From the NCBI GenBank assembly GCA_903813345.2, contig CAIIXF020000011.1, forward strand, positions 3,744,571 to 3,808,570: DNA of 64,000 nucleotides, given 5' to 3'. The stretch comes from Owenia fusiformis. Lineage: Eukaryota > Annelida > Polychaeta > Sabellida > Oweniidae. Under the pieces are notes generated by a model, which saw only the letters and a program-made list of their open reading frames with translations, did no database searches and had not been told where the DNA came from. A program made the translations under genes and the position numbers. Positions 3,080 through 50,645 of the stretch are shown one piece after another. Position 1 is the first letter of the stretch. Each line of letters starts with the position of its first letter.

Positions 3080-3282
3080 TCAACAATCTTGGATCGGCCT
3101 TAGAAAGATGAATCCCAACACTTGGACAGACAGCGTTTGGGTCGATGGTACACCTTACAATAAAACGTGGAACAGGTGGAAAGATGGAGCAGGGACTGTA
3201 GATACTAATTGTCTTGAATTAGCTACAATCGGATGGGACACAAAGGGTTGCATGTCCGAAAATCAAGTCGTCTGTCAGAAAG
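3080..3282 (+). CDS. Gene A exon: C-terminal half of C-type lectin domain
   Basis: The acceptor is TTATAG at 3079 and the donor is AAAG|GTGAGA after 3282. Translation opens with QQSWIGLRKMNPNTW and includes SVWVDGTPYNKTWNRW, then a Cys (TNCLEL) and a closing VVCQK. WIGL, the W-x-DG stretch and the paired Cys are C-type lectin hallmarks. The canonical EPN/QPD and WND calcium and sugar ligands are not present: the loop after NRW reads KDGAGTVDTNC. The exon has the same length (203 nt) as its gene B counterpart. Confidence 0.85.
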
Positions 3283-6200
3283 GTGAGACAATTTTGGACG
3301 GAATCAAAATAGCACATAATCCAGGAGTGCATCAATGGTATTGTCCGAGTTCTTAAAGTCCCATATTGTTTGAAAATATTTTTATCATGCATTCTATAGT
3401 TGTCATGACTTTTAGGCATTTCATTTCTCAAATATTTTATTTTCCTGCCATTTTATATAAAAGTTGATGTTTTTTAATCAAAAAATATTCCATTGTGCAA
3501 TGAAAAACATTAACACCAATTCGAAGATTGAACAAAGGAAGCAATCTTTCAATAGTAAAATGTAACTTGCCACTTTAATGTTTTAACATATTATAAAATA
3601 TTTTGCAACCTTGGTGAATTAATCATAACATCATCCAAGTGGCAACCATTTTTTGAAAAGATTTTGACATCTTAGTCTTTTCTAAATATGATAAACTTCA
3701 ATAAAAAAACAATGTTGATTATCTAACCGGGTTGAAGAAAAATATATTGTATTGGATATAAGTGTACCATTGGCTTCTTTGAGAACTAAACTTTTGAACG
3801 CATTTATCACTGAACCATTTACATGCATTGATGAGTTCATTTTCTCGCTTATTTTCGAACCAATTGTCTTATCTTTTCGGAAAAAGTAAAAATAAAAGTT
3901 TCACACATCACACTTTAATAACATTGAGTAAGACTACAATCTACGAGCTAATATGAATACATTTTCACTACAGTATCGACTGAAGTATATGTATTCAAAC
4001 GAACCCACTTAAAAAGTTTTACAAGAAAATATATGATTCTAATATTCGCCAAATGTCAAGAATAGATAGACAAAATTCAATTAGCGAAAATTTATTGTTT
4101 TGCATGCACTCTGGTAGTTGTCGTTATGTTACTTATATAGTAAAATATTTCTTGATGTCTCACACTGTTTACATTATGCATACTTGAATATTATACAATA
4201 AATAACATTCCTGTTAATAAGCTTGAGCTTAATATAAATAAAAAACTTCATCTTCATAACATTTCCAAATTATTTTAACTGTTTAACTGATTGATGGAGC
4301 AATTACTTTACATATTATACGAACTTGTTTCTTATTTTAGTATATCCATGTGACAGCCCAAGCCCTCTGGATGATAATGCTAATGTAACTGACCTAGGCT
4401 CAGTAGAAAGCTATTATTACAGTGTTGCATACACATGTGACACGGGTTTTTTCATAGGTGGCAATGCAAGCATTCCGAGCGAGACTATACGATGCAAGAA
4501 TAATGTCTGGGATGACCATACTCCTTGTGAATATCCACCATGTAGCAATCCGCCGAGTGATATACATGCGAATATGTCAGTAAGCTCTGTGTCATTTAAC
4601 GTGGATACCATAGCAACATATGTATGTCACGATGGATATTCGATCGGCGGCGGGCTAAATTTAGATTCTTCTGAAAATATAACCTGTTTAGTCGGTGGAC
4701 AATGGAGTACGCATGTGCATTGCAAGAAAAAGTCATGTGGAGCTCCAGAGGAGTACAATGGCGCAAACGTTACACACTCTGGGACATTATACAAGGATGT
4801 AGCTCAGTACGTATGCCACAATGGTTTTGAAAGAATTAATAATACTTACATGGTTGAATGTTTGTCTAATACATATTGGAGTTATGCTCCCAAATGTGAA
4901 CCTATCGACTGTGGTCTTTCTCCTGTGTATTCTAACACACATATTATTTATGAAAATGGAACAAGATTCGAGAATACCATTCGATATGCATGTGACCCTG
5001 GATATGAGTTTGAACCGTCCTCTGGAGAAACCTGGGAGAGTATTACATGTCAGGCTACTGGGAATTGGACCACTCTTCACAGCATATGTCAACGGAAAAA
5101 CTGTGGGAATCCTAATGATGACCCTAACGCAGTGTCAGTATTCAATGGTACCCTATATGAAGACATCGTAAGATATGCTTGTAATTATGGGTATATCCTG
5201 TCAGATTTGCCCGATATGGATATTCAAAATGTTAGTTGCCTTCGTAATGGGACATGGGAGTACCATGCGTTATGTAAACCTGTTGATTGTGGAAGCCCAC
5301 CGATTGACGCCAATGCAGTCATTTCTAAAAATAACTCACATCTGTTTAATGATACCATATTATACTCCTGTAATTCAGGATATGTTATGAATGGAACGAA
5401 TGAAATAAAGGCGATTATATATTGCACCGAGAAAGGCGACTGGAGTGAACATAATGTTTGTGTGAGGCGATCATGTGGGGCTCCTAAGGCTGACCCTAAC
5501 GCAGTGTCAGTATTCAATGGTACCCTATATAAAGACATCGTAAGATACGATTGTAACTATGGGTATATCCTGTCAGATTTGCACGATATGGATATCCAAA
5601 ATGTTAGTTGCCTTTGTAATGGGACATGGGAGTACCATGCGTTATGTAAACCTGTCGATTGTGGAGACCCACCGATTGACGCCAATGCAGTCATTTTCAA
5701 TAACTCACATCTGTTTAATGATACCTTATTATACTCCTGCAATTCGGGATATGTTTTAAATGGAACGAATGAAATGAAGGCGATTATATATTGCACCGAG
5801 AAAGGTGACTGGAGTGAACATAATGTTTGTGTGAGGCGATCATGTGGGGCTCCCCCTTTCGACCAAAATGCCAATATATCTGTTAAAAATCCGCTATATA
5901 CATTTGAAACAATAGCCACATATCATTGCAATAAGGGTTATTGGATGAATGGTACAACAACTGATACTATAGCATGTCAAGCTGACGGAACATGGGAATA
6001 TATGTCTCCTTGTTCAATAATTTTGTGTAATGATCCTCCCGTGGACACTTATGCCAATTTAACTCAGGGTGTAACCATTCTACACAATGACGCAATAGCC
6101 GTTTACGACAATGTAACTCAGGGTAGGCCATTTATGTACAATGATACCGTCATCTACTCATGCAGACAAGGTTATTTTCTCAATGGTCGTAATGTTTCAA

Positions 6201-7128
6201 TATCTTGTGGCGAACGAGGCCAATGGTATGGAGACGATCCTTGCGTCAAATCCACCCCTAGGTCTGGCTGTTCATGCGGCGTTCTTGAAGATGATCCAAA
6301 TGCAATACCTGTGGATCCAAATATCCTTAACTATACGTGTATGAGTGTTGCGATACTACAATGTAAAAATGGTTATCATATAGACGGTCATGACGAGAAC
6401 AGTATATACGAGTATGTCCAATGTTTACAAAATGGAACCTGGTCATCGAGATCATATTGTATTAGTAAGTTATATCTTTAATACTCATAAGAGCAAGATA
6501 GCTATTTATCGATGTTGGGTAGAGCTAATGGGTAGTGATAAGTGTCGGGCGAATATTGAACGCCATCTATTAAAAGAGCAATATATTTGAAAGGCGTTGA
6601 GGATGCAAATATAGCAATAGATGACACGTATTACATTGGTATTATGTCCGTGTATTAACATGATAAAGAAAAAACAAATACACTTCATCCTAAATACCAT
6701 TCTCTCTTAGTATATACTGAATAATTATTAAATTTTGAATAGTTGTATTATACATATCAATGCAAATGTTTCTCGAAAAGTAAACAAATAACAAATAACA
6801 AAATGGGCAAAGATTTTGTCAAATTACCCATACTTTTACATCAGACAACAATTGATGTATTTTTGTCATTTTAGGTTCGTCCAGTAACACGTGGATTCGA
6901 GCTAAGAGAGTCGTGTTCAAACCGGAGGAGGCAGTTGGAGCAGTCGCAGTTGGTTCTGTGGGGTTAATCATAACTATAACTATGCTAACACTCGTCTGTT
7001 TATCAGATGTAAAAATGCTACAATCACAATTTAAGAATATGATGCTTAAGAATTTGTGTTTAACCAATAAAGAACGGGAGATTCACCCATATAGGGATAA
7101 ATCACAAGAATGCTGCTCAAAGAAATAA
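3080..7128 (+). CDS. Gene A: selectin-like C-type lectin / 11-sushi transmembrane receptor (5' partial)
   Basis: Three exons are visible: 3080-3282 (second half of a C-type lectin domain), 4341-6464 (11 CCP domains in one exon) and 6875-7128 (membrane span, tail, TAA stop). Phases are 2-1, 1-1 and 1-end, and all junctions are GT-AG and keep frame, giving about 859 residues. It is a type I membrane protein by inference from paralogues B and C; the signal peptide exon is not in the window. Lectin plus CCP repeats plus one TM segment resembles vertebrate selectins and insect Furrowed, but no EGF domain is present. The role is inferred as cell-surface recognition (glycan, microbe or cell-cell). 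The many Asn-X-Ser/Thr sites predict heavy N-glycosylation. It lies head-to-tail with gene B about 5.7 kb downstream. Confidence 0.85.
3283..4340 (+). other. Gene A intron between lectin and sushi exons
   Basis: AT-rich phase 1 intron, donor GTGAGA and acceptor TTATTTTAG. No repeat or conserved element is recognised in it. Confidence 0.7.
4341..6464 (+). CDS. Gene A giant exon: 11 consecutive sushi/CCP domains
   Basis: The 2124-nt exon encodes 708 codons. Each CCP of about 60 residues shows the C...Y-x-C-x-x-G-[YF]...C...G-x-W...C pattern. Modules begin near VYPCDSP, PCSNPP, SCGAPEE, DCGLSP, NCGNPND, DCGSPP, SCGAPKA, DCGDPP, SCGAPPF, LCNDPP and CSCGVLE. CCP5-6 (from 5120) and CCP7-8 (from 5492) are a near-identical tandem duplication with a 372-nt period. 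CCP10 is extended by a duplicated stretch containing NLTQG and NVTQG. In most animals each CCP has its own phase 1-1 exon; here they are fused without introns. It is a true exon and not a processed copy: splice sites on both sides match those of the paralogues. Confidence 0.92.
6465..6874 (+). other. Gene A last intron
   Basis: Phase 1 intron with donor GTAAGT and acceptor CATTTTAG. It is AT-rich, with no element recognised. Confidence 0.7.
6875..7128 (+). CDS. Gene A last exon: juxtamembrane motif, TM helix, cytoplasmic tail
   Basis: Translation reads through a conserved WIRAKRVVFKPEEAVGAVAV block into a hydrophobic helix (about GSVGLIITITMLTLVCL). The tail then begins SDVKMLQ and contains KNMMLKNLC, ending in CCSKK and a stop. 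Genes B and C carry the same W-[IV]-R-A-K-[KR] and P/S-E-E-A-x-G-A motifs before the helix and S-D-[LV]...K-N-x-M after it. No ITAM, ITIM or kinase motif is seen in the roughly 45-residue tail. Confidence 0.88.
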
Positions 7129-7365
7129 TATAATACTAATAAACAAGAGAGACGTTTGAACACTGCGTTTACTAAATTATTTATTTACTTTGTTCTCTAG
7201 ATTGGTAATGTGATTAATTGAATCGTTAAAATACATGCGGTTATAATGAATTATTCCATAATATAAGTATTTATATCAAAGAAGACGAACGTTGGTAGAC
7301 ATAGTTTATTTATTTTAATACAAGAATAAAATACAATACATTATTACATTTGGCTTTGGGGTACG
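7129..7365. other. Gene A 3' region with truncated copy of the 301-bp repeat
   Basis: Downstream of the stop, AATAAA occurs near 7326, a plausible polyadenylation signal. Bases about 7233-7275 (ACATGCGGTTATAATGAA followed by TTATTCCATAATATAAGTAT) are a partial copy of the start of the 301-bp repeat that follows. Confidence 0.45.
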
Positions 7366-8268
7366 GGTCGCCGCTGATGAAGAAATACATGCGGTTATAA
7401 TGAAATAATTATTTTAATATTATTCCATAATATAAGTATTATAAGCGTGTACGCTAACTATCAGCATCAATCAGAAAATAAGGAGAGCAAACTGATGCAT
7501 TTTGATTTTAAAAATTGAGAAAATTGTGAAAAGGTCGGAAAAAATCACCAAGTTTAGGGGGTTAAAGATGTGAATATTCTATTAGGAATATGGAAGCTAT
7601 TCGGAATCTGAAAATGAGATTTACAGGAAAAGTGAAAGTCAGATTTCAGGGGTCGATAAGGGTTTAGGTCGCCGCTGATGAAGAAATACATGCGGTTATA
7701 ATGAAGTAATTATTTTAATATTATTCCATAATATAAGTATTATAAGCGTGTACGCCAACTATCAGCATCAATCAGAAAATAAGGAGAGCAAACTGATGCA
7801 TTTTGATTTTAAAAATTGAGAAAATTGTGAAAAGGTCGGAAAAAATCACCAAGTTTAGGGGGTTAAAGATGTGAATATTCTATTAGGAATATGGAAGCTA
7901 TTCGGAATCTGAAAATGAGATTTACAGGAAAAGTGAAAGTCAGATTTCAGGGGTCGATAAGGGTTTAGGTCGCCGCTGATGAAGAAATACATGCGGTTAT
8001 AATAGAGTAATTATTTTAATATTATTTCATAATATAAGTATTATAAGCGTGTACGCTAACTATCAGCATCAATCAGAAAATAAGGAGAGCAAACTGATGC
8101 ATTTTGATTTTAAAAATTGAGAAAATTGTGAAAAGGTCGGAAAAAATCACCAAGTTTAGGGGGTTAAAGATGTGAATATTCTATTAGGAATATGGAAGCT
8201 ATTCGGAATCTGAAAATGAGATTTACAGGAAAAGTGAAAGTCAGATTTCAGGGGTCGATAAGGGTTTA
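7366..8268. repeat. Three-copy 301-bp tandem repeat
   Basis: Units start at 7366, 7667 and 7968, each opening GGTCGCCGCTGATGAAGAAA and ending in GGGGTCGATAAGGGTTTA. The copies differ at only a few positions, so the amplification is recent. An inverted partial copy of the last 70 bp lies at 9232-9303. The unit has no coding potential. Confidence 0.93.
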
Positions 8269-9668
8269 GAAAAAAAATTATTTCAAAACTTTATTTCAGA
8301 ATTTGTGTGTACTTTGAGAACTATATATTACTGTATTTTCATATATTATCCTCCAGTCCTTGGTATTACTGCAGTGCTACTTGACTGTTTACCGACCCTA
8401 TTCATAACTGAAATTCTAACATAAGAGATAAAGGTAAATAAAAAACTTAAAGTACCAGTCCAATTTTATGTGACATTATAATGAGCTGATTATATGCTGA
8501 CGCTTTACAGCACCAATTTCAACTTATTTTCAATGTTTTTAACTTCAAACAGTGCATAAATCAAAATATGTTATATTTTTTATTTTTTACTATTTTTAGG
8601 CAAAAATTAACGGTGGTACCATGGTACTATGACTTATGTATAAAGGTTGATAAACCCCATCAGAGGACATACTCTACATACTAGCATATTAAATAAAACA
8701 CATTCCCTAAAGCGGTGTTTAACATTTGCTGTGCTTTGTATTAATATTTTCACGTTAAAACTTTCTGACGAATTCCACAAAATATTCCTTAGGTTATTTT
8801 CTTTCTAACTTTTATACATGTGCAACTCAAACAACCCAGTTGTTTTATAAGGGTAAAGTGTATCCATGTAGATACCCACTCCTTAGGAAATATAACATTT
8901 CTGAAATACGGAGAAAATCCCAAAATTTACGTTAAAATGTAAGCGGCTAAACAAAAAAAATAGAAGCTGGCGGAGTTATGTAGAGCATGTGATTGGTCAC
9001 ATTAAGGTTTTCAAGGTTATAGGTACACTATTTCGCCACCCAACATCTGATAAAGTTTACAGAATTGTAGTATGATGGTCTTATAAGGAGAGTTAATCTC
9101 TTTGAGACTATTTAAACTGGTCAATCAACTGTTAAGAGTTCACATTTGTGTTTTTTAGCTTTGAAACTATTGATTTACCAATCATACCAGTCCTATAATA
9201 AAGTTTTAATGCTACTGAGCATATGATATGACCCCTGAAATCTGACTTTCACTTTCCCTGGAAAGCTCACTTTCAGATTCCGGATAGCTTCAACATCCCT
9301 ATTACACCTTGTCTTGAATGCCATGTCTTGTAAAATAGCAGATCATTTTTGTATTCAAAATGCAACAACGTTGTCAGCGTCATAAAATGTTGACGTAAAA
9401 TTGTCAATAGTTTGCTTTATATTGTTGTGTTGAATATGTGATAACAATAAACATTTCAAAATATTTCAATATATGAAAACAGGAATCGACCCTATATCCA
9501 TGAAAATGTTTTTTTAGTAAATACTTTTAGCTATATACTCATGGTTTCCAAGATATGAATTCCATTTTTGATTCTAAACCTTGTAGGAAATCTTGACAAA
9601 TTACCACCATGCGATTTTTCTGAAGAGCAACTTTCGCAGAAACAATACGTATACACTAAAGTAAAATC
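8269..9668. other. Intergenic DNA with inverted fragment of the 301-bp repeat
   Basis: No gene is seen. Bases 9232-9303 (CCCCTGAAATCTGACTTTCA ...) are the reverse complement of the 3' part of the 301-bp unit with a few substitutions. The array may therefore have grown inside a foldback element whose other arm is here. Confidence 0.55.
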
Positions 9669-12847: not shown

Positions 12848-13022
12848 ATGAAAGCTCTTGTCTTCTGTTGTGTTCTGTTAGCATTTTGCTTCGAACAGCA
12901 TACAATGGAGCTTGACCGATGTGGAAACGCAGAATGCGAAGACCTAATTATAACTACCGCTGATGGAGTGGAGTTCGAATCCTGCCCAGAAATTAAGCTA
13001 GGATTTAATTGTTCTGAAAGGG
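12848..13022 (+). CDS. Gene B exon 1: signal peptide and N-terminal Cys motif
   Basis: The ATG begins MKALVFCCVLLAFCF, a typical signal peptide core, with cleavage likely near residue 20. It continues LDRCGNAECEDL and ends ESCPEIKLGFNCSE. Gene C exon 1 has the same D-R-C-G-N-x-x-C, G-V-x-F-x-x-C-P-E and L-G-x-N-C pattern, which confirms the start. The donor is GG|GTAAGC at 13022 (phase 1). The CPE...NC part probably forms the first strand and disulphide of the lectin domain. Confidence 0.85.
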
Positions 13023-16000: not shown

Positions 16001-19000
16001 ATAAAATTATGCAATCTTATATCATCGTAGTTGTTAAAGTTTCTACACCAAATTGTAGATAATTGGATGAAGTATATGTGGGAAAAGTTTGAACATCCTA
16101 GCTCTACTAATAAACATTTTACAATGGGGGGGTGCCCTTTTGCCCCCCCCCCCCTTAGGTGTTCGTGTGACTATTTTTACCTTAGAGCTTCTAGGGTTAA
16201 GTTTTAAATTGACAATAGAGTTTACTAATTTTATCTTACAATACCCATGTTTCTTCATGCTAAACAAAGTTATAGGCCTACATTGCCAGTTTTTCTTCAG
16301 AAACCCCTCTGATTAAAACGACTTCGATAGCAAAAAATATTTCAGAAATGACTTTGAATACTTATGGAATTTCCAACAATGCAAATTCGATAATTTTAAA
16401 AGGTATTTAATGGATATCTTGTATTCTTTATAATTCCAGCACAATTTGCCATGACTGTGGATAAGTATAAGTGGGATAATACGGCATGCGAAAAACTAGG
16501 CGTCGAGTGGAAATATGCCGTCGACTTCGAAGACGATGAGAGATTTTTACATGTGCTCCAAGTTGCAACGTTTGTATACTAGTTTATATTCGTTCGAGCG
16601 TAGCAAGTTGAGATGATAAATGATTTATTCTAATTGTATAGTTAAATAAAGTTAAATCAATAAAAAAGAGTAGCGGTTTTTGATTCTTAATTAGTGGCAT
16701 TGAGCTAGTGATATAGATTTTCATTCCGGAATGGGTCGTCGCAAATTAAGTCCAAAATTCTAATTAAAATTCGCTTAAAACCTTCATAGTAGAGTTGAGT
16801 CAAAATGCATTAGCAAATGGTTCTGACAGATAAAGAGGTGGTTATACATACCTTATCAAAGGGCTTCAGCGGAATATCGTTTCTTGTATCAATGGTTATC
16901 AACCGCGCCTTAATATCAACAAGACAAATAAAGGATATCCTTTGATTTATGAGTGATAGGATTTTTATGTGTTATGTTTTATGTGATATCTGCACGAGCG
17001 AGCACAAACGATCCGGTGATGTTGACACTTAGCCTCGTTTTGAGTCTGAAGTAGCAAAAATCCATAATTCCTAGCATACGGCGCCGTATGTCATGACTAA
17101 AACACCGTATACTATGGTTAAGTGAAAATATGTCAAAAATATCATATTTTACCATTGATTACAAAAATACCGTTTTTATTTCGACATGTTATCTTATGAA
17201 TATCATGCTAACTGTGGAATAAAACTTAATACTACATGCAATGTATCATGTATCTTCAATTACACTTTCTATCTATTAGAATAACTTGTTTTGTTGACAT
17301 AAATAAATGACTAGACAAATAAAGTGAAAATAAATGTGCGAGAAAAGTATGCCTTAACTGAAGTGAATTCAAATTATGTTTAGAAAAGATTCTTGGATCG
17401 GTCTTAAAAAGATGGATGCTAACACATGGGCACACAGCGTGTGGTTAGACGGTACACCTTATAATAACACATGGAATAGATGGGACGAAGGAGAAGACGA
17501 TGTGGATACTAACTGCCTTGCACTAGATGCAGAAGAATGGCTTACAGATAATTGTACAACCGAACAACCTGTCCTCTGTCAGAAAGGTGAGACGATTTGA
17601 GTACAGTTATACTTATACATTTTCAAAAAGTACATCAATGGTATCGCGAGTGTAACTAAGTCAAATAAGGAATGGATCGAAGAGACATTTATCTATTCAA
17701 ATGGAGCACTTATTTCTTACATGAAAATTAAATCTTAACGAAAAATGAGTCGCATCTTTCACTTTGGCCATTGCCTACTTGTAAATGCTACTTCTTTGCA
17801 TTTTTCAAGTTGCTAACACTTGCCAATTGCAGTTTGCTGTTCTCGGGCAGTTGGTATAAGCTTACTATGCATTGTTTCCAAATAATCTTAAGTTTACAAA
17901 AACTAACAACAAATGCAGCACCGTAGGACGTTTCAAAACAATTTGTCAATCGATACCGCTCAAAAGGTTAAGGACTAGGTTTTCCTCATAGGTTTACATG
18001 TTGCATGTTAACCCAGGCCAGAAATTCTTTCAAAAGCATGTAGTTTTTCACTATTCTAAGCACTTTTGCATGAAGTCAAATAGCCATTGAATTTGCTAAC
18101 TTGTCTTTGACAGAAATTGATTTCTTTCAGCGGGTTTTACAAAGTTAAGAGTCTCCAAAGTCAAAATAATATTTTAATAAACCTCTCATTCAAATGAAAC
18201 AAGGGGTCAAAATGAACTCCCCAAAATACTTTAAAGCTCTGTATCGTTAATTTTCACAAAGTAAGCTATTCGTTTATAAACATAAACTCCCTGCTGATGG
18301 TGCTTTCACTGTGAATATTATTCGACCTTGTTTTTTAGTCTTTCCGTGTGACAATCCAAGCCCTCTGGATGATAATGCTAATGTAACTGACCTAGGCTCA
18401 GTAGAAACCTATTATTACAGTGTTGCATACACATGTGACACAGGGTTCTTCATAGGTGGCAATGCAAGCATTCCGAGCGAGACTATACGATGCAAGAATA
18501 ATGTCTGGGATGACCATACTCCTTGTGAATATCCACAATGTAGTAATCCACCGAGTGATATACATGCGAATCTGTCAGTGAGCTCTACGTTATTGAACAT
18601 TAGCACCATAGCAACATATGTGTGTCACGATGGGTATTCGATCGGAGGCGGGCTGAATCGAGATTATTCTGAAAACATGACCTGCTTAGTCGGTGGACAA
18701 TGGAGTATCACGCATGTGCATTGCAAGAAAAAGTCATGTGGAGCGCCAGAGGAGTACAATGGCGCAAACGTTACATACTCTGGGACATTATACAAGGATG
18801 TAGCTCAGTACGTATGCCGCGATGGTTTTGAAAGAAATAATAGTATTTACATAGTTGAATGTTTGTCTAATACATCTTGGAGTTACGCTCCTAAATGTGA
18901 AGCTATTGACTGTGGTATTGCTCCTGTTTATTCCAACACACATATCATTTATGAAAATGGAACAAAGCTTGAAAATACCATACGATATGGATGTGATTTT

Positions 19001-20443
19001 GGTTATGAGATGGAGCCGTCCATCGGAGAAACACAGGGTAATATTACATGCCAGGCCACTGGAAAATGGACAAGTCTTCACACAATGTGTCAACGAAAAA
19101 ACTGTGGAAATCCTATTAATGACCCTAACGCAGTGACAGTAGTCAATGGTACCTTATATAAAGACATCGTGAGATATAATTGTAACATTGGGTATGTCCA
19201 ATCAGATTACCCCAGTATGGACATTCGAAATGTTAGTTGCCTTGGCAACGGGACATGGGAGTATCATGCGTTATGTAAACCTGTCGATTGTGGCGATCCA
19301 CCGATCGATTCGAACGCAGCCATTAACATATCTGGCACCTTGTTTAATGATTTTACGCAATATAAATGTAACAGTGGATATGTTCTGTCAGACATTACTC
19401 ATTTAAAAGCTCACAATGTTAGTTGCCTTGGCAACGGGACATGGGAGTACCATGCGTTATGTAAACCTGTCGATTGTGGCGATCCACCAATCGATTCGAA
19501 CGCAGTCATTAACATATCTGGCACCTTGTTTAATGATTTTGCGCAATATAAATGTAACAGTGGATATGTTCTGTCAGACATTACTCATTTAAAAGCTCAC
19601 AATGTTAGTTGCCTTAGCAACGGGGCATGGGAGTACCATGCGTTGTGTACACCTTGTGGCGATCGAGGCCAATGGCATGGGATCGACACCTGTGTCCAAT
19701 TCACGCCTGTGCCTAGCTGTTCATGCGGCAATCTTGAAGAAGATCCAAATGCAATTCCCGTGGATCCAAATATTCAAGTCTATAAGTGTAGTAGTTTTGC
19801 GACACTACGATGTAAAGATGGTTATCACATAGACGGCCGTAGTGAAAACAGTATATACGAGTATGTTCATTGTTTGCAAAATGGAACCTGGTCATCGAGA
19901 TCATATTGTATTAGTAAGTGACATTTGATTCGATATTGTAAAAGCTTGTCATATAAGTACTCAAAATGTTGATTTTCTCGAGTATTGTCTAGATATCCCT
20001 TGGTTTTCTTTTCAACAATTATTGCAAACTGCAGTCGCATGTCATGTTTTAAAAGAGCGATAACTCATTAATTTGATTTCCAATCGTTACAAAAAACCAA
20101 GAGAATGAATGTGTTGCATTGACTTATTTCTGCGTTAACATTTTTGTCTACCACCGTAAATAAGATAAAATGAGCATATAGATAATGGCTTTAATTTAAG
20201 TTATAACGCCGTCCTTTCTTTTCAGGTGTAAATATTGAAAAATGGGTTCGGGCGAAAAAGGTTGAGTTCATCCCAGAAGAAGCGGCAGGAGCAACTTTAA
20301 TCGGGTCGTTTGGCTTGTGCATCACCATAACTTCAATATCAATAGTCTTTATATCAGACCTCAGGAAATTGTATTTTCAATTCAAAAATAGAATGTCGCA
20401 GAATTTGTGTTTCGACATATTAAAACAATCAAGAACTAGATAA
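12848..20443 (+). CDS. Gene B: selectin-like C-type lectin / 8-sushi transmembrane receptor (complete)
   Basis: Five exons join in frame: 12848-13022, 16440-16569, 17384-17586, 18339-19913 and 20226-20443 (phases 0-1, 1-2, 2-1, 1-1, 1-stop), encoding about 766 residues. Order: signal peptide, Cys-rich N-terminus, C-type lectin domain, eight CCPs plus a CCP remnant, one TM helix, a tail of about 35 residues. It should be a cell-surface type I glycoprotein. Its lectin fold lacks the classical EPN/WND sugar-binding residues, so calcium-dependent mannose or galactose binding cannot be assumed. CCP1-3 are almost identical in nucleotide sequence to gene A, while other parts are more diverged. Compared with A it lacks several CCPs through an internal deletion near 19651. 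All introns are GT-AG. Confidence 0.88.
13023..15561 (+). other. Gene B intron 1, 5' part
   Basis: AT-rich intron. Bases about 13675-13705 (GGTATCGATATGGTGAACT) recur inverted at 14137-14155, and the AAAACATTCTG at about 13736 recurs inverted near 14094, suggesting a decayed foldback element of about 480 bp. Nothing else is recognised. Confidence 0.5.
15562..16196. mobile_element. Non-autonomous piggyBac-type element
   Basis: TTAA at 15558-15561 and 16197-16200 flanks the ends CCCTAGAAACCCTAAGG and (reverse complement) CCCTAGAAGCTCTAAGG. TTAA target duplication and CCCTAGAA-like termini define piggyBac elements. The 635-bp body has no transposase. It holds an internal tandem duplication of about 200 bp (TTAATTTATTATGATGTAAT at both about 15726 and 15928) and homopolymer G and C runs near 16130-16155. 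It sits in intron 1 of gene B. Confidence 0.85.
16440..16569 (+). CDS. Gene B exon 2: first half of C-type lectin domain
   Basis: The 130-nt exon (acceptor ATTCCAG, donor AC|GTTTGT, a weak donor) translates as AQFAMTVDKYKWDNTACEKL then GVEWKYAVDFEDDERFLHVL and QVAT. It matches gene C exon 2 in length and in the motifs Q-[FY]-A-M-T, C-x-x-L-G, W-K-Y-A and L-Q-V-A-T. This corresponds to the first helix and strand of a C-type lectin fold. Confidence 0.85.
16570..17383 (+). other. Gene B intron 2
   Basis: Phase 2 intron. It contains a 14-bp perfect palindrome ATACGGCGCCGTAT at about 17079; otherwise nothing is recognised. Confidence 0.6.
17384..17586 (+). CDS. Gene B exon 3: second half of C-type lectin domain
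   Basis: Acceptor TTTAG, donor AAAG|GTGAGA. Translation is KDSWIGLKKMDANTWAHSVW, then LDGTPYNNTWNRWDEGEDDV, then DTNCLALDAEEWL and PVLCQK. WIGL, the paired Cys and the aromatic residues mark the lectin core. The acidic loop DEGEDDVD occupies the place of the usual EPN motif, and there is no WND before the last Cys. Confidence 0.88.
17587..18338 (+). other. Gene B intron 3
   Basis: Phase 1 intron, donor GTGAGA and acceptor TTTTTTAG. No repeat is recognised. Confidence 0.65.
18339..19913 (+). CDS. Gene B giant exon: 8 sushi/CCP domains plus a remnant
   Basis: The 1575-nt phase 1-1 exon has modules beginning near VFPCDNP, QCSNPP, SCGAPEE, DCGIAP, NCGNPIN, DCGDPP (twice) and CSCGNLE. CCP6 (19286-19471) and CCP7 (19472-19657) are almost identical with a 186-nt period. 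After CCP7 the frame enters CGDRGQWHGIDTC, which is the C-terminal third of a CCP equivalent to gene A CCP10. Its first half, and the domains corresponding to A CCP8-9, are missing. The final CCP is intact and close to those of A and C. Confidence 0.92.
19914..20225 (+). other. Gene B last intron
   Basis: Phase 1 intron, donor GTAAGT and acceptor CTTTTCAG. Nothing else is seen. Confidence 0.65.
20226..20443 (+). CDS. Gene B last exon: TM helix and short tail
   Basis: Begins SVNIEKWVRAKKVEFIPEEA, then GATLIGSFGLCITITSISIV as the membrane span, then FISDLRKLYFQFKNRMSQNL and CFDILKQSRTR before TAA at 20441. It shares W-V-R-A-K-K, P-E-E-A-x-G-A and S-D-L...F-K-N-x-M with A and C. Confidence 0.88.
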
Positions 20444-27751: not shown

Positions 27752-27778
27752 GATATTTAGACAAGTTTCAAATAAATA

Positions 27779-34883: not shown

Positions 34884-34892
34884 TAATAAGAA

Positions 34893-36590: not shown

Positions 36591-36762
36591 ATGAAAGGAT
36601 TGGCAAAATGCTATGTTTTCATAGCACTCATAGTTGGAAGGTATACCGTGGCTGGTGACAGATGCGGAAATCCAGACTGTAGTCCAATAACGGACATCAG
36701 TAACGGAGTGGCATTCCAGGAATGTCCAGAAGTGAGTCTTGGGACGAACTGTGATGTTAAAG
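36591..36762 (+). CDS. Gene C exon 1: signal peptide and N-terminal Cys motif
   Basis: MKGLAKCYVFIALIVGRYTV is a hydrophobic signal sequence with cleavage likely after about residue 22. It is followed by DRCGNPDCSPITD and ends ECPEVSLGTNCDVK. The donor is AAAG|GTATGT (phase 1). It aligns with gene B exon 1. Confidence 0.86.
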
Positions 36763-42700: not shown

Positions 42701-45700
42701 AGTAGTCACTTTTGCACATCTACTGTAACCACGCTTTAATTTTTTTTCAGTGCAATATGCCATGACGACGTTGAAATATCCGTGGACCGACAATATTTGT
42801 CAAACTCTTGGTTCGAGGTGGAAATATGCCATTGACAGTCAAGATAATGAGAGACACTACCACATGCTTCAGGTGGCAACGTAAGTTGAATATGAAAATA
42901 ATTTCTTGTATTTGTTCATGGAATTGTGTATTATATCATCTGGTTAAGCTGGCAACGTTCATTCAGTATGAACGTTTTCTGTTGTAATTAACCCTTTACC
43001 GACGTGAGTGGCCTGGTGACGGATAAGTAAGAGCGGTTTTTAGGTAAAAACTGAAAATGACGTATACCCCGGGACCTATACTTTAAATGTTATCACTAAA
43101 ATACAATATTACATGTCAACAACTTGTCAACATTTGGTGTATGATGTATGTAAATACAAATAGTGGTGTCAAAAGGAGCCTATCGTTCTGAAAGGTATGG
43201 CTCCATATGAGGCCTATCGTCGTGAACAGGTTAAACACTCTTGTATTCTACTCGGTTGCGTTGGTTACCGAAACAGATCGTTTTGGTAACAAAATGTCGG
43301 AACCTCAAAGAATGATTTTTCTATTTCCTTATTTCACGCGTTGTAGGCAGAATTTCAACGACATATTTATCACAAACGTGTGTTGGAATCATATGTTTAA
43401 GAAAATGTACATGTTTGCGAAAAAATAGGTTTGAAGATAACAGAATCATCAACTTAATACCTCACTATAGTAAGTAAATGGAACGGGCTAGAAGTGCAGA
43501 TCTTAACCGTTTTTGAAGTTCCATTTACGTAACAAAGGGAAGTATCAAATCGACAATTCTGTTGCCTTATGTACTATTTGTTGGTAAACATGTACATTTT
43601 CTTAGACATATAATGCCGACATACGTTTGTCATAAAAATGTCGTCGGAACTCTGCCTAAAACGCATTAAATAAGGAAAGAGAAAAATCGTACCTTACAGA
43701 TTTCAACCTTTTGTTACCGAAACGATCCGTTTCGGTTTAGTTTTTTAGTTTTCATGGTTTCTTTATTTTACTTTACAAAATTATCTACAAATGACAGGGC
43801 CGAGGCTGAAATCAGCATTATTGGCCCTGTTAATACAAAGTTTATTCAAATTTACAAAATAGCAACAAAATGACTACCAACATGTATGTATGCATGGCAG
43901 GAATGTGTTAAAACTATATAATTATATCAATGCATTCACACAATGTATCCGTTTCGGTAATCGAATGAAGTATAGTACCAGTGTAAAAATGCGGTCGTTT
44001 AATTTTGGGGCAACGTAAGTTGTATATTACCATCTGGCTTTCAGTTTTAGCGTTTCAGCTTTTCCTTTCAGTTTTAATTGATAGAAACTCTGTCAGTAAT
44101 CTACAAGTTTCATTTGTAAGAAAAATGTCACGTTAATCGATATGGCACATTGACCTTGAAATAACAAAAACACTATTCAACCATTTATCTAATTCAACCA
44201 TTTATCTAATTCAACTTGTTCAAATTCAAAGACTTGAGAATTATTTTTTGCGATTCTTTATATTTGCAATATTGGAAATTGCAGGAGTCATTCTTGGATC
44301 GGCCTTCAAAAGACTAACACCTGGGAGGAGAGTGTTTGGTTAGATGGTACCCCTTACAGCACTACGTGGAACAGATGGGATGGCAGTGACGACAGTAGTA
44401 CCTGTCTTGAACTGGCTGAAGACGAATGGCACTCGCATGGATGTGGCGATAGCAAGAATGTGCTTTGTCAGAAAAGTGAGTTCGGTAACTATGTTATCGA
44501 TTTAATGCAGCGTCAAATATACAAAATGTCAAGTTTTGGTCTTATATTATTCCTAAGCATGCCTTGTGACATCGAAAACTATGGTCATGTTTCCATGTTT
44601 CTATTATTATTTTTCTTCTAAAAGATCTAGTGCCCTGCCCTGATGTAGCGATAACAAGAATGTTCTTTCGGTAACTATGACATGTTTAATGCAACGTAGA
44701 TTATACAAAATGACGAACGTTTTTTTGATCTTATATTAATCCTAAGTACGCCTTGTTACATAGAAAACTAAAAATGATGAACGTTTTTTTTGGTCTTATA
44801 TTATTCCTAAGTACGCCTTGTTACATAGAAACTATGGTCATATTTCCATGTTTCTATTGTTTCTTCTAAAAGATCTCGTGCCCTACCCTGTAGTAGCGCT
44901 AACAATAATGTTCCTTGTCGGAGAAGTGAGTTCGGTAACTATGACATCGATCTGATTTAATGCAACGTAAAATATAGAGAGTGTGGAATTGTCTTATATT
45001 GTTCCTATGTACGTCTTTTTACATCCAAAACAATGGTCGTGGTGCCTTGTTTCTTTTATTTTTTAAAGACCTTGTGCCCTGCTGATAATATCTACACATA
45101 TTTTTAAATACGTCGGCGAAAACGTTGAATTCAATGAATACCATTCATTATACGATCGAAATGTAAATACGTCCTTCTTTTTCAAGTTCAACACTCTGAT
45201 AGGCGGTCCAAAGATCAATATGTATATATGGGATTGAATTCAATACATTCATATTCTAGTGTGAATATATAGGATTTAAAGACAAAAAGCCCAAGATGAA
45301 AAAAAAACTTTTACGTCTGAAATTACCAATAATCATTTTTTTCATGACAAATTATCTTACAAATCAGTGTGAAACCAACACCCCGTGCAGACAGATCGCC
45401 TAAAAGTACATTCGTATGATGTGAGACTCGACATTCACCAGGAAAGTAGAAACATTTTGTCGCACATGATGCAAATTAATTTTTTTACTCCTAAATAAAT
45501 GCTGGATGACCAGTCATATTAAGTTCTATAAGTATGAATAAGTATGAGAATAGCATGAAAATGATGATTGAAATGAATTTCATATTGAATTTCTAAAAAT
45601 AGAAAAAATAGTAAGGCATGTAGGTCCGACTCCTCCTGGTAGCATTAACATTGGTCTCGTATAAGTCATACAATTAATATTTGAACCCGACTATTATTCA

Positions 45701-48700
45701 AACTTATGATCGGACATAATTATGATGTGTACTTCAATGTTATATCAAAAAGTAACATCATACTTATGTCCGATCATAAGTTCGAATGATAGTTGTATTT
45801 CAAATATTAATTGTATGACATGTATGAGACCAATGTTAATGCTACCAGGGGAATCTGACCTGATGTATATTTCTTAGTTTTTCAAAGAAATCTACAAATA
45901 TTTCATGACGGTTTTATCTTTACATCGTAATTTTGATCACCACCATCTCTTTCCCAACGGGTTACCTTGAAATATCAAGACGTCATGCTAAACTTATACG
46001 TATAGAACTCAATGTAACTGTCCTTGACCATTTACTAAGCAGCAAAGATTAATTTACTTCATGGGTGACAAAATGTTTCTACTTTTTGGTGAATGTCGAG
46101 TCTCGCAACTTCCGAATGTAATTGTAGGCGATCTGTCTGCATGGGTGAACCAGAGAATTACAATAGTTGTTTTAACTCCTAGCGTTTTGGATCAAGATGA
46201 AGAGATTTCCGTGATTTTGAATCAATGATGACTGTTTAATTGAAATAAACATATATAGCTGTACTCATATCCAAGATTTTGCTGACGCATGTGCAGTTTT
46301 TAGTAAACACGCATCCGTTTCTGTTTAAATCAGCATATCCTGCAAATCAATTGGTTGGCGTATCATGATCGTATCGTCTGAAGTACATAATGCTTGCGAA
46401 TAATCAGTAACAAAATAATGAAATCTCCTTATGACAGCCAATCACTTCTTATTAAATAGAAGTGACGCTTATCAGCAAATGATATACATAGATTAAAACA
46501 AAACATGTGAGGTATTTTTAGAAAAACAATTTGACTACCATGGCAGACAAAATGTTCCAATTGCACCTCATGACTTTGTACTCTGGTGATCCTGGATAAC
46601 TATTTTATCAGAATTGAGAAATAATTGAATGATGTATCACTGGTAAGAAAATCAAAGGGATTGGTTGATAAAAAGTATCTGTGTAAAAAAGCGCCCATTA
46701 CTTATTGATCACCCCTCGTATAATTGCAGTATTGCAAAAGGGCAATGCGCTGACATCAAGTTTACGTCATGTTTCATTCAAGTATACATCTGAGTTATAC
46801 ATTAAACAAAATGCTATATAGAAAAGCCTATTAACTCACTAATTCCAATTCGATACAGTGCTTTAATAATTGGATTGCACTTCGTGTGATGAATAAGTTA
46901 TTCCGAGTGATGACAATAAAACAATACATTGCAATCAACCAATATCTTATAAGCCATTTATAAAAAAAGAATAATATAAAAATACTTGCAGTTGTGCATG
47001 AAGGTTTGGATAAAATCAACAAATGTGTTCCAAATATTCGCCTACTTATTTCCAAAAATAAATGATATATTATATAATAAGAAATCACCTGAACAATACC
47101 TTTAGTATCAATTGACCTCTATCGTGTCCAGTTTTTAAAGTCCATCGCTTGAAGTTTTTTGAAGTTGTAGAGGAGTTGAGAAATGAGCATCTTTCAAAAA
47201 TTATTTGAAAAATATGTTTTAAAGAATTTTCTACACGATATACAAAATAATTGCACCTGAAATGAAGGTTGTTAATTGAATTAATCGTCAAATTAGCAAA
47301 TGAACCATATTTTTTATTTTCCTTTTTCTACCATCTACCTACTGGTTAACAAATAACAACGTATAACATATTAGCCTTACTATACTCAAAATTAACAATT
47401 GAAATGCCTTCAACTATCTTCAAATTATATCGACGATTAGAATGACCGTCCGTCTCATTTCCCATCATCATCTCTCACTAACATTCATATACATCATCAC
47501 GGGCAAGATCTGGTGGACGGCCGTCTGGCTGTCCGTTGCAATCCTACACACTCCAGTGATTTATTTTATGTTTTTCTCTTTCTAGAGGGAGGGGGCAATA
47601 ATGCTATATAGCCTCGGCCCCTCACAATCTATATATGGAAATAATAATATGGAAATAAATAACAATAACCTAAAAAATTAACAATCGATATACCTCTAAT
47701 TAGAACAAATATGTGATAACCGTCTGTCGCCACAAGAAGCATTAATTTCTATACAATATTTGAAAATTGTATATATTCCATAATATTTTAAATTTCTAGT
47801 ATTTGGGTGTGACGACACCTTCCCTGCAGATACTAATGCGGACATTGAAAACCCTGGGACTGTAGAAACCTATTATAACAATGTGAAATACACTTGTCAC
47901 GAAGGGTTCTTCATAGGCGGTGAGGTTAACACAACAGCCGAGACAATACAATGTAGGAATAATGTATGGGACGATCATACTCCTTGTGAATACCCTCCAT
48001 GTAGCGATCCACCAAACGATATCTCAGCAACTATATCACTAAGCTCTCCCGCGAAAACAATTGGTACCATAGCAACCTACGTGTGTCACAATGGATATTC
48101 AATTGGAGGTGGGGTCAGTAGTACTTTTAATGAAACGATGACGTGTCTAGAAGGAGGTGCATGGAGCAACACACATACACCCTGTGGTAAAAGGTCATGT
48201 GGAACGCCAGAATCATACAATGGCGCAAGTGTAACGCCCGCAGGGACATTGTACACCGATAAAGCTAATTATCTGTGTGATACTGGTTTTAAGACACAAA
48301 ATAATCAAATGTCTTACACAGTAGAATGTTTGGCGAATGCGATTTGGAATTACACCGAAAGATGCAGACTCGTTGATTGTGGGTCTGCTCTGCTTCATTT
48401 CGCTGCACATATCACTTTTCAAAATGGAACACTTTATGAAAATACTATTGAATATACATGTAACCCTGGTTATGAGATGGATCCTACCACAGGAGAAACT
48501 CAAGATGAAATAAAGTGTCAAGCCTCTGGAATTTGGAGCAACCTGACCAGCTCTTGTCAAAAGAAAAACTGTGGTGAACCGATAGCTGATGAAAATGCTC
48601 TCTCAATAGTTAAAGATGGTACACATTTTCAAGACAATGCAAACTATACGTGTTCTCCTGGCTATAGAACGGGGGGAACTATCAGTGAAATTGTATATTG

Positions 48701-50645
48701 TGATGAAGGCGGTTCATGGACACATCATACCCCGTGTTTACCTGTTGTGTGTCCCGCTCCACCTACTGATCAAAATGCAGAGGTGGATGTAAACGGGCTC
48801 AACTACAATGAAACGACTGTGTACACTTGCCACGTGGGTCACTATCTAGATGGACTCATAGATTTCCCCTCTGAGTTAATAAGGTGTTCTGAAGATGCTC
48901 AATGGACCCCAAATCATGCTCCATGTATGCCAGTCTCTTGTGGAAACCCTGATGATGATCCCAATGCAGTAGAAGTAGTAAATGGTACACTATATAATGA
49001 TACCATGTCTTACGAATGTAATAATGGATATGTCTTGTCGGATTCTACTGATATGGTCAACAGAATTATAACTTGCCTCAGTAATGGCATCTGGGAGAGT
49101 CATGCTTTATGTACTCCGATTGATTGTGGGAACCCGCCAGTCGACATTAATGCATTCGTAAGCATATCTGGTACAGTATATGAAGACACGGTACGATATG
49201 ATTGTAGTACTGGTTACAGACTTGGGTCATCGACTCCCAGTTCAGCAACGTATGATGTTATCCATTGTCTCTCAAATGGGCATTGGAGTGACCATTCCCC
49301 TTGTAGTCGAGTACCGTGTGGCTCCCTTCCAATTGATCAGGATGCAACAGTGATTGCTGGCAATATGTCACATTTAGACGGGAGTAATATTTCAAATCTG
49401 TTTAATGATAGGGTAATATTCATATGTAATTCAGGATATGTTATAAATGGTACAACATTGACTAATGAGACAGTATATTGCACTGACACTGGTAACTGGA
49501 GTGAACATACCAGTTGTGTTAGACGCTTGTGTGGCCCGCCACAAATTGACAATAATGCATTAATGCTGACAACCGACCATTCGTATTCATACGAATCGAC
49601 GGCTTTTTACACTTGCCACATAGGATATTGGATGAACGGAACTACAAGTGATACTATCACCTGTCAAGCCGATGGGACATGGGAAGATCGGTCTCGATGC
49701 ATCATAATATCTTGTTCTGATCCACCCATTGATAAGAACGCCAATACAACCAAAAGAATAACACATTTGCACAATGACCCAATGAACTCTTATGCAAACC
49801 TAACCCAAGGTGAAACATTTCTGTATAATGACACTGTATTATACTCCTGTCGAGACGGGTATACAATTAGTGGTCGGAATTCCACATCAGAAACAATACA
49901 CTGTGGACACGGAGGCAAATGGAGTGCGCATAGTCGGTGTGTTAAACCTACACCAAGTTGCTACTGTGGGCCTCTCTCTAAAGATCTAAATGCTGAACAA
50001 GTTGATCCAAGAACCAATTATGCATGCATGGATGAAGTGTTGTTCAGGTGTAAAGATGGTTTTCACATATATGAAAACGAGACGAGTAGAACATATGAGT
50101 CTGTCCTATGTTTACCGAACGCTACCTGGTCACAGAGAACGTATTGTAAAAGTAAGTTAACATTTCTTAGATAGTTTTCAATGAGCTATAAATAAATAAT
50201 TGTATACGGTTTATTATTTAATTCTAGAAATTCTATATAAGCCTAAAGTAAATATCCGGCTGTGGAAACACATTATACTTATCAATTAAGAAGCACTCGA
50301 ACAAAAATTAGAGGTATACTTGCCAATTAAGAATCACTCGAACAAAAATTACAGGTCCCAGTGTCTAACTACTCAATCCAAAATTATATGATATTTTTTT
50401 TAGGTATATCAGGTGATTCATGGGTTCGAGCCAAGAAGATAACGTTCCCTTCCGAAGAGGCGGCTGGAGCAGTTGTCATTGGCTCAGTGGGATTGATAAT
50501 CTTATTAACTGTGCTTACCATTGTCGTATTATCAGACCTCCAAAGAATATGTTCACATGTGAAAAATATCATGATAAAAAATGTGCGAGCTTGGACACGT
50601 AAACCAAGCGCCCATTTTAAATATAAGCGTACAACTGAGACTTGA
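36591..50645 (+). CDS. Gene C: selectin-like C-type lectin / 12-sushi transmembrane receptor (complete)
   Basis: Exons 36591-36762, 42751-42880, 44285-44475, 47800-50151 and 50404-50645 join in frame with the same phases as gene B, encoding about 1028 residues. Order: signal peptide, Cys motif, C-type lectin domain, twelve CCPs, TM helix, tail. It is the longest and most diverged of the three. Its 14-kb length comes from introns carrying a 122-bp triplicate, several foldback elements, a Mutator-like element and a tandem copy of its own exon 3 end. It is expected at the cell surface, with the same recognition-type role inferred for A and B. It is convergent with the protease gene 2.6 kb downstream. 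Confidence 0.88.
36763..37125. repeat. Triplicated 122-bp repeat at the start of gene C intron 1
   Basis: Units begin at 36782, 36904 and 37026 (AACC[TA]AGTCC.GTG.AGGCTAAG...). Each contains GATC.TGCGAGCGCGAGGGA and ends GTATGTTTTCTCTCTATCG or a variant. That unit end resembles the true donor GTATGTTATCTCTCTGTC, so the array apparently grew from the splice-donor side. Confidence 0.9.
37250..37600. repeat. Degenerate tandem duplication (about 185 bp) in intron 1
   Basis: GTCTACTGC.CGTTACGC.TGCTT at 37253 recurs at 37435, and TTTTGAATATTCATAATTT follows in both. Two diverged units are seen. Confidence 0.7.
37918..38523. mobile_element. Foldback element in gene C intron 1
   Basis: CGGAACACC followed by AAGTCAGGTACCGTTGTCAC at about 37938-37975 pairs with GTGACAACGGTATCTGACTT and GGTGTTCCG at 38470-38513. 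The outer CTAATT ends also match. The body is about 600 bp and non-coding. Confidence 0.7.
38524..41677 (+). other. Gene C intron 1, middle part; no gene recognised
   Basis: AT-rich. Bases about 40300-40760 have modest coding-like stretches (MDLVFEWLNKHSDTRLGA in one frame) broken by stops. They could be a very old transposon ORF, but I cannot name it. The ORF at 39658-39894 is hydrophobic by chance composition. Confidence 0.3.
41678..42395. mobile_element. TIR element with 9-bp target duplication (Mutator-like), copy 2
   Basis: Same family as 26513-27346, in opposite orientation. The ends TAGCCTTGCCACAAGTCGGT and inverse GACTTGGGGCAAGGCTA are flanked by the exact 9-bp duplication GTTTTCCTA (41669-41677 and 42396-42404). 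The 718-bp body is non-coding. It sits in intron 1 of gene C. Confidence 0.87.
42489..42559. repeat. Two-copy 36-bp tandem repeat containing a TATA-like string
   Basis: TTTGTGTGGTATAAATACCC is followed by CGCCTGCCTTATAATG in both copies (42489 and 42525). The copies are identical apart from the last bases. It lies 190-260 bp before exon 2 of gene C. Confidence 0.9.
42751..42880 (+). CDS. Gene C exon 2: first half of C-type lectin domain
   Basis: 130 nt, acceptor TTTTTTTCAG and donor AC|GTAAGT. It translates as VQYAMTTLKYPWTDNICQTL, then GSRWKYAIDSQDNERHYHML and QVAT. Length, phases and motifs match gene B exon 2. Confidence 0.86.
42881..44284 (+). other. Gene C intron 2 with a foldback element and a retroposon-like tail
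   Basis: Bases 43263-43735 are a foldback element: TTACCGAAACAGATCG...GGTAACAAAA at the left pairs with TTTTGTTACCGAAACGATCC at the right, with arms of about 180 bp. The ORF inside is one arm and not a gene. Bases about 43790-43850, read on the minus strand, contain CAGGGCCAATAATGCTG and CAGCCTCGGCCCTGTCA. A related string occurs on the plus strand at 47588-47620, suggesting the 3' end of a retroposon family. Confidence 0.6.
44285..44475 (+). CDS. Gene C exon 3: second half of C-type lectin domain
   Basis: Acceptor ATTGCAG, donor AAAA|GTGAGT. It translates as SHSWIGLQKTNTWEESVWLD, GTPYSTTWNRWDGSDDSSTC and LELAEDEWHSHGCGDSKNVL, then CQK. It is four codons shorter than in A and B. There is no EPN or WND motif. 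Confidence 0.87.
44440..45085. repeat. Tandem repeats that copy the exon 3 end and its splice donor
   Basis: Units begin near 44440 (inside exon 3), 44642 and 44890. Each carries a version of GTAGCG.TAACAA.AATGTTC followed by TTCGGTAACTATG.CAT. Unit 3 keeps GTCGGAGAAGTGAGTTCGGT, including an intact GTGAGT donor; unit 2 has lost it. Unit 2 also has an inner 63-bp duplication (CTTATATTA.TCCTAAGTACGCCTTG). The copied exon ends lack acceptors, so they are pseudo-exon fragments. Confidence 0.85.
45386..46141. mobile_element. Foldback element (about 755 bp) in gene C intron 3
   Basis: The outer TGCAGACAGATCGCC pairs with GGCGATCTGTCTGCA. The adjoining GAGACTCGACATTCACCA and AGTAGAAACATTTTGTC pair with the right arm. 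The inner arms GTAGCATTAACATTGGTCTC and CTTATGATCGGACATAA pair around a centre near 45740. Confidence 0.82.
46142..47799 (+). other. Gene C intron 3, 3' part
   Basis: AT-rich. At 47588-47620 GGGGCAATAATGCTATATAG and CCTCGGCCCC resemble the element at 43790-43850 (opposite orientation). Just upstream is a GC-richer GGTGGACGGCCGTCTGGCTG stretch; together these may be a short retroposon. No exon is seen. Confidence 0.4.
47800..50151 (+). CDS. Gene C giant exon: 12 consecutive sushi/CCP domains
   Basis: The 2352-nt phase 1-1 exon runs from acceptor TTTCTAG to donor AAAA|GTAAGT. CCPs begin near IFGCDDT, PCSDPPN, SCGTPES, DCGSALL, NCGEPIA, VCPAPPT, SCGNPDD, DCGNPPV, PCGSLPI, LCGPPQI, SCSDPPI and CYCGPLS. 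First and last modules align with the first and last of A and B. CCP11 has the same NLTQG-containing insertion as A CCP10. CCP5 and CCP6 have no close equal in A. No recent CCP duplication is seen, so C may be nearer the ancestral arrangement. N-glycosylation sites are frequent. Confidence 0.93.
50152..50403 (+). other. Gene C last intron
   Basis: Phase 1 intron, donor GTAAGT and acceptor TTTTTTTTAG. AAT(T)AAGAA.CACTCGAACAAAAATTA occurs twice in tandem (about 50285 and 50327). Confidence 0.65.
50404..50645 (+). CDS. Gene C last exon: TM helix and cytoplasmic tail
   Basis: SISGDSWVRAKKITFPSEEA leads into GAVVIGSVGLIILLTVLTIV, the membrane span, then VLSDLQRICSHVKNIMIKNV and a basic tail ending in TTET before TGA. 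The same juxtamembrane motifs as in A and B are present. The tail is about 40 residues, with no recognised signalling motif. Confidence 0.88.

Follow-up and report, generated by a model that had tools for sequence, protein, structure and literature searches.

A 64,000-nucleotide stretch of the 498 Mb genome of the annelid Owenia fusiformis (contig C11, positions 3744571-3808570; hereafter the window) carries three genes, A, B and C, each with a C-type-lectin-like domain, an array of complement control protein (CCP, or Sushi) domains encoded in one exon, one transmembrane (TM) helix and a short tail. The last exon of these genes is assigned to a large anchor superfamily, whose members lie under CCP, EGF, lectin or Ser/Thr-rich ectodomains. 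That the TM exon is an anchor module common to a genome-wide receptor superfamily was not in the first-pass annotation of the window. At slightly better than even confidence, the lectin-CCP genes may be taken as type I receptors with a dedicated anchor shared genome-wide, for which adhesion or recognition would be the most likely output.

When the TM exon of C was used as a seed against the genome, it matched 50 places at E ≤ 10, many of them within long open frames elsewhere in the genome. Four further seeds gave 69, 57, 18 and 54 matches (the last two limited to E ≤ 1). The union of the five seeds comprises 85 places; the best E is ≤ 0.001 in 57 and ≤ 0.01 in 68 of them, and 71 were found by at least two seeds. 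The 68 places are spread over all 12 large contigs and are partly in tandem, with six at C4:9436891-9505071, four at C9:11502224-11628939 and four at C2:2778829-2786291.

These places share a juxtamembrane motif, Y-x-[RP]-[AIV]-K-[KR]-[IV]-x-[YF]-x-P-x-E-A, ahead of the single TM helix. Outside the lectin-CCP genes, 33 of the 85 places were read, and 32 of them have the motif, some loosely. It is also common to five copies of the lectin-CCP family (A, B, C, a fourth tandem gene Z and a copy on contig C5), which carry W for Y, and to a distant relative on contig C10 (C10a). Among the 38 anchors aligned by hand (the five family copies, C10a and the 32 loci), K5 and E13 are kept in 36 each, A14 and A17 in 33 each, and G21 in 34. 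Four loci (L015, L028, L034 and L035) fit this table loosely, L034 and L035 being partly out of register. A second C10 relative (C10b) is not in the table, as the sequence taken there (L010, 10,000 bases) ends within its anchor; L024 was sampled for its lectin exon and not as an anchor.

Permutation of the 21 juxtamembrane residues of the L012 seed, with the TM and tail kept, reduced the matches from 69 to 15, and those at E ≤ 0.01 from 41 to 6. Therefore, as far as one permutation of one seed can tell, most of the signal comes from the motif and not from hydrophobic composition. In a motif shuffle test 33 of 33 fell below 0.01, but as the searches that had yielded the loci included the motif, this result is partly circular, a flaw that the permutation of the L012 seed does not share. 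An AlphaFold2 model of exon 5 of B (three sequences; mean predicted local distance difference test score 78.5, predicted template modelling score 0.40) predicts one helix running from the P of PEEA through the TM and the tail, the preceding basic stretch not being helical. The L012 anchor has no match in the PDB by phmmer, and the anchors of A, B, C, L012 and L013 have no Pfam match over cut-off. Below the cut-off are ATP-synt_8 (E 0.015) and Orthoreo_P10 (E 0.087) for A, and TMEM100 (E 0.12) for L013.

The ectodomains beside the anchor were surveyed at 32 sampled loci, in stretches of 2.7-7 kb each, with lectin exons assigned to anchors by position and strand. Sushi domains are present at six loci (L012, L019, L022, L025, L026 and L041), an EGF domain at one (L039), and Lectin_C over the cut-off at five (L014, L015, L018, L033 and L044) and just under it at two more (L017 and L027). 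At 28 of the 32 loci, the segment adjoining the anchor on its outer side (at most 120 residues in the same frame; only 22 were readable in L030 and 17 in L037) has a Ser/Thr content of at least 25%. Long CCP arrays adjoin the anchor at L012 (C10:32402001-32409000; 19 Sushi) and L025 (C2:10546001-10549500; 12 Sushi), in one open frame each, and L022 (C4:12826001-12830500) has 10 and 5 Sushi stretches in two frames beside the anchor. The copy read from the C4 tandem group (L040) has a Ser/Thr-rich stalk, and the one from the C9 group (L041) has CCP and a Ser/Thr-rich stalk. Three matches to the annelid haemoglobin linker domain PF16915 lie at C6:27033687-27048438. A Forkhead search gave 38 matches, on C1, C3, C4, C5, C6, C8, C9, C10 and C11 and none on C2, C7 or C12, with tandems on C8 and C10 and a close pair on C3. 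This pattern is predicted if the contigs follow a text-sorted order of the chromosomes (1, 10, 11, 12, 2-9), since excerpts of PMC9539403 assign the Fox genes of O. fusiformis to chromosomes 1, 2, 3, 5, 6, 7, 8, 11 and 12, with foxQ2 tandems on 5 and 7 and a tight foxC/foxL1 pair on 11; the window would thus very probably belong to chromosome 8.

In the window, splice modelling gives three plus-strand genes arranged head-to-tail. B and C are complete, with five exons each. A is cut by the left edge and retains exons 3-5; exon 1 (C11:3735637-3735811) is found about 8.8 kb, and exon 2 (C11:3743668-3743797) about 0.8 kb, upstream of the window start. The segment of interest runs from 3080, the first base of the lectin exon 3 of A, to 50645, the last base of the stop codon of C. 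All modelled junctions are GT-AG, and the intron phases 1,2,1,1 are common to the copies. The exons, in window coordinates, are as follows.

3080..3282, plus strand: gene A exon 3, lectin (splice model; Lectin_C found on the completed N-terminus of A)
4341..6464, plus strand: gene A exon 4, CCP array, 11 Pfam Sushi stretches (splice model, Pfam)
6875..7128, plus strand: gene A exon 5, anchor module, with WIRAKRVVFKPEEAVGAVAVG, TM, short tail and stop
12848..13022, plus strand: gene B exon 1, signal-peptide-like start and first cysteines
16440..16569, plus strand: gene B exon 2, first half of the lectin-like domain
17384..17586, plus strand: gene B exon 3, second half of the lectin-like domain
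18339..19913, plus strand: gene B exon 4, CCP array, 8 Sushi stretches, shorter than that of A
20226..20443, plus strand: gene B exon 5, anchor module, tail and stop; the AlphaFold2 helix starts at the P of PEEA
36591..36762, plus strand: gene C exon 1, signal-peptide-like start and first cysteines
42751..42880, plus strand: gene C exon 2, first half of the lectin-like domain
44285..44475, plus strand: gene C exon 3, second half of the lectin-like domain
47800..50151, plus strand: gene C exon 4, CCP array, 12 Sushi stretches
50404..50645, plus strand: gene C exon 5, anchor module with tail and stop; the seed by which the anchor superfamily came to light

The proteins are 766 (B), 1028 (C) and, once completed, 961 (A) residues long. 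The exon holding the whole CCP array is 1.6-2.4 kb in the three genes, and Pfam reports Sushi in 11 stretches of A (E 5.7e-67), 8 of B (E 8.7e-40) and 12 of C (E 4.6e-71). Lectin_C is matched by B (E 2.2e-7), C (E 1.3e-7) and the completed N-terminus of A (E 7e-7). There are 21-29 N-X-S/T sequons per protein (A being counted on the partial protein). By hydropathy, a single TM lies close to the C-terminus, and the N-terminal signal segment is of weak to moderate strength; the signal peptides are predicted from hydropathy only, with 19-residue maxima of 1.35-1.97 in Z, A, B and C. Exon 4 of A is 77% and that of C 52% identical to that of B, and the rate of nonsynonymous substitution (dN) is below that of synonymous substitution (dS); the resemblance of the three genes is therefore not due to chance.

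Genome searches with the lectin exon, the TM exon and exon 1 agree on the set of copies. Exon 1 matches five places (C11 3716227, 3735703, 3757484 and 3781227, and C5 2880555), and the lectin exon has five strong places. The fourth tandem gene, Z (C11:3716146-3727656), lies upstream of A and is open throughout; among the matches listed for the TM exon, those on C11 all fall in the four tandem genes. On C5, exons 2-5 of the fifth copy lie at 2895180-2903937, and its exon 1 is known only as a match. On C10, the two distant relatives (around 21.25 Mb and at 19.22-19.23 Mb) retain a degenerate lectin exon in which two of three cysteines are lost. CCP counts by a local hidden Markov model (HMM) are 10 in Z, 11 in A, 8 in B, 12 in C, 18 in the C5 copy, 23 in C10a and 22 in C10b; Pfam counts 9 Sushi stretches in Z. 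A genome search with Pfam PF00059 gave no window match among the 150 of 565 candidates scored, probably because exon boundaries divide the lectin and because scoring was confined to these candidates.

The first-pass annotation had described three tandem lectin-CCP-TM genes with signal peptides and identical exon phases, as a copy-varying family. The tandem order and the common phases are confirmed by the splice models and Pfam, and the family is larger than described, with four genes on C11, one on C5 and two distant relatives on C10, and with 8-23 CCPs; single-copy status in this genome is contradicted by the five places of exon 1 and of the lectin exon. The count of three genes with a signal peptide holds in the genome but not in the window, where only B and C are complete.

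Among the neighbouring sequences, two trypsin-like serine protease pieces (Pfam Trypsin, E 8.3e-7 and 5e-9) lie downstream of C on the minus strand (61011-61990), and a remnant of a DDE-type transposase, Tc1/mariner-like by eye, lies between B and C (23920-24165; PF13358, E 0.0023, below cut-off). Comparison of open reading frames with themselves showed short tandem arrays behind A (7381-8290, units of about 301 bases) and behind B (21129-22004, units of about 227 bases). The open reading frame at 63218-63538 looks like a TSP1 repeat by eye, yet it has no Pfam match at E ≤ 10.

No EGF domain is found over the Pfam cut-off in A, B or C; the only related match is cEGF (E 0.059), which falls within the CCP array of A. 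The five lectin-to-CCP introns (752-4066 bases) show no EGF-like cysteine pattern in the three sense frames, while the same pattern recovered two EGFs in locus L039 as a control. No pair of these introns aligns by BLASTN at E ≤ 1e-3. The lectin head of C, the only one searched, has matches to DC-SIGN-type domains across residues 60-164, the best in the PDB being 1sl5 (E 1.5e-4), and NCBIfam gave no match for the first 293 residues of C. In an alignment of the five heads with two DC-SIGN-type carbohydrate-recognition domains (CRDs), which included no selectin sequence, the P and N of the EPN motif fall in a two-residue gap in all five heads, with the E retained in Z and B; in place of WND the heads have WHT (Z), WDT (A), WLT (B), WHS (C) and WHA (the C5 copy). 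Because WND and the P-N of EPN are replaced, classical sugar binding at Ca2+ site 2 is predicted not to occur in these heads. The lack of an EGF between lectin and CCPs, part of the selectin-like description in the annotation, is borne out by Pfam and by the scan of all five introns with its working control, whereas a selectin-type lectin function is not supported by the comparison with DC-SIGN. Membership of the selectins was rejected on these grounds (no EGF, no WND, P-N of EPN gone), and the analogy of layout was kept.

The copies exchange sequence. For the pair Z and A, exons 1-3 have dS values that are saturated or exceed 2, as do five of the seven exon 4 windows that could be scored before column 1138 (the other two give 0.6 and 1.1); the next two windows give 0.7-1.0, and the stretch made up of the last CCPs and exon 5 gives 0.16-0.23. 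For the pair A and B, dS lies at 0.03-0.74 over exons 1-3 and the early CCPs and reaches saturation in exon 5. The best break divides 784 informative sites into 596 on its left, of which A shares 109 with Z, and 188 on its right, of which A shares 160 with Z (maximum chi-square 283, vs at most 16 in 300 permutations). The similarity of Z and A extends into parts of intron 4 at 85-87% (BLASTN). Gene A is thus a recombinant, put together from a B-like and a Z-like part. In its last CCPs, B is also fairly similar to A and Z (dS 0.29-0.82), which makes it likely that exchange took place more than once. As read from the sequences, B has two nearly identical adjacent CCPs and a fused remnant, and A has a duplicated two-CCP unit. 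In all exon-wise comparisons with finite dS, dN is smaller than dS, and the coding sequence is on this measure conserved. The exception at the window level is a 60-column A-B window from column 298 (dN 0.053, dS 0.031), where there are few changes.

In the proposed explanation, a C-type-lectin-like head would be carried on a CCP rod rich in N-glycosylation sequons and fixed in the membrane by the dedicated anchor. The sequences show that the length of the rod (8-23 CCPs) varies within one large exon, with CCP units duplicated and lost, and that the anchor is homologous to those of dozens of other receptor-like genes that have other ectodomains. Heads and rods may bind protein or cell-surface ligands without a classical Ca2+ site 2, and the juxtamembrane motif, the TM helix and the tail may all serve the same partner, or the same step in assembly or processing. 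In that case the different ectodomains would lead to a single cellular output, which would most likely be adhesion or the recognition of non-self or of neighbouring cells.

It is further proposed, tentatively and with rather less than even confidence in the whole, that several dozen to about 85 type I receptors of Owenia make up an undescribed superfamily, which would form a modular recognition system docking to a common partner. CCP, C-type lectin, lectin-CCP, EGF and mucin-like ectodomains would all be borne on one homologous anchor, made up of a basic extracellular juxtamembrane stretch, a PxEA helix cap, the TM and a helical tail, and the window genes would be one recombining branch. How non-insect invertebrates build diverse recognition repertoires is an open question, to which these genes are relevant. 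A conserved anchor under different ectodomains at dozens of loci provides a sequence handle for finding all members, partner and expression, in an annelid with published developmental RNA sequencing, and the recombining lectin-CCP cluster shows the reshuffling of rod length and head.

Several observations weigh against the receptors being a recognition system with a shared anchor. At 18 of the 32 sampled anchor loci there is no recognised ectodomain in the stretch examined, of which four were scanned by Pfam in chosen frames and 14 by the local CCP and lectin HMMs only, which are blind to other domains. The chosen frames of L011, L013, L021 and L043 have no Pfam match over the cut-off (L021 has Lectin_C at E 0.85). 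L023 (C12:1757178, best E 0.09), which was omitted from the motif count, has no motif, and therefore some of the weaker places are chance TM matches. The tails have no signalling motif recognised by eye, so a signalling output is not evident. The exon-wise dN/dS values are below 1 and give no hint of diversifying selection, as an arms race would be expected to produce. Finally, the family is known here from the sequence of this one genome.

Sequence alone does not decide between recognition, complement-linked receptors, shed lectins and Furrowed-like adhesion; the role put forward as likeliest is recognition of an adhesive or immune-like kind. It is unlikely that the genes are annelid counterparts of insect Furrowed, acting in tissue polarity or development by homophilic CCP contacts and not as a recognition repertoire. 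The lectin, the roughly ten CCPs and the TM are indeed the set of the beetle Furrowed homologue TcCTL15, and homophilic adhesion is attributed to the second CCP of Furrowed, in the excerpts of PMC9954269; purifying selection in the exon-wise comparisons also agrees with such a role. However, the worm genes exist in several recombining copies, Pfam reports no F5/8C or F-type domain in them, and they lack the WND and the P-N of EPN, while TcCTL15, in the same excerpts, has QPN and WND and is termed the sole selectin of its genome (PMC9954269).

An action on complement, as CCP-array receptors or regulators like CR1 or the ascidian vCRL1, appears rather improbable: CCP arrays are also found in proteins outside the complement system, and neither CR1 nor vCRL1 is known to have a lectin head. 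What speaks for it are the CCP arrays of variable length, the one TM and the short tail, together with the polymorphic sushi protein vCRL1, which in an excerpt of PMC9265791 is said to be likely involved in the setup and maintenance of the Ciona blood system. The genes might instead encode mainly precursors of shed soluble lectin-CCP proteins, with the basic juxtamembrane motif as a furin-like processing site. R-X-[KR]-R is found in 12 of the 38 anchors, including Z, A and the C5 copy, and the site lies just outside the predicted helix. This reading is nevertheless improbable, since the pattern is missing in 26 anchors, including B and C (RAKK, vs RAKR in A), and the conservation runs on through P-x-E-A and G, beyond the needs of a cleavage site. 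Wrong gene models, an assembly artefact or pseudogenes are very unlikely. The models derive from genomic sequence, but all modelled exons of the five copies (exons 2-5 in the C5 copy) are open, with GT-AG junctions and identical phases, dN is below dS, and the copies, introns included, are too divergent for haplotype duplicates.

Likeness to known systems may be seen in several respects. Insect Furrowed and TcCTL15 come nearest in layout. Like the worm genes, these proteins have one C-type-lectin-like domain, about 10-11 CCPs and one TM, with no EGF listed, in the excerpted part of PMC9954269. The same excerpts give TcCTL15 eleven CCPs, an F5/8C domain, and QPN and WND motifs in its CRD (PMC9954269), and an F-type domain in Furrowed is also given in part of PMC8226959. 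In contrast, no such domain is found by Pfam in A, B and C (E ≤ 1) or Z (E ≤ 0.1), as modelled from exon 1 onwards; and whereas TcCTL15 is a sole gene, the worm genes are multi-copy and recombining, without QPN and WND, and have a shared anchor. In the consulted parts of the literature, a survey of bivalve C-type lectins lists sushi among their partner domains and reports that C-type lectin numbers vary widely within Annelida (PMC10140915), and a siboglinid genome paper counts O. fusiformis lectins among the pattern recognition receptors, the lectin-CCP architecture not being described in that part (PMC10192322). The open-licence literature on Owenia lectins or immunity and on annelid C-type lectin-sushi proteins, as far as its available parts go, yielded no description of the family or of the anchor, which does not show that they are undescribed.

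The layout of the selectins (L, E and P), with a lectin head, a CCP rod, a TM and a short tail, is found in the worm genes, and the selectin genes also lie in tandem. The worm genes differ in the absence of EGF and WND, in having 8-23 CCPs vs 2-9 in selectins, and in the encoding of these CCPs in one exon. Ciona vCRL1 is likewise a variable CCP receptor with a single TM, but it is not known to have a lectin head and varies between individuals, whereas the variation seen in the worm is in copy number and rod length. Lastly, in receptor families with one anchor and variable ectodomains, such as the vertebrate paired receptors, related anchors likewise lie under divergent ectodomains at many loci; the worm anchor has no PDB match and no Pfam match over cut-off.

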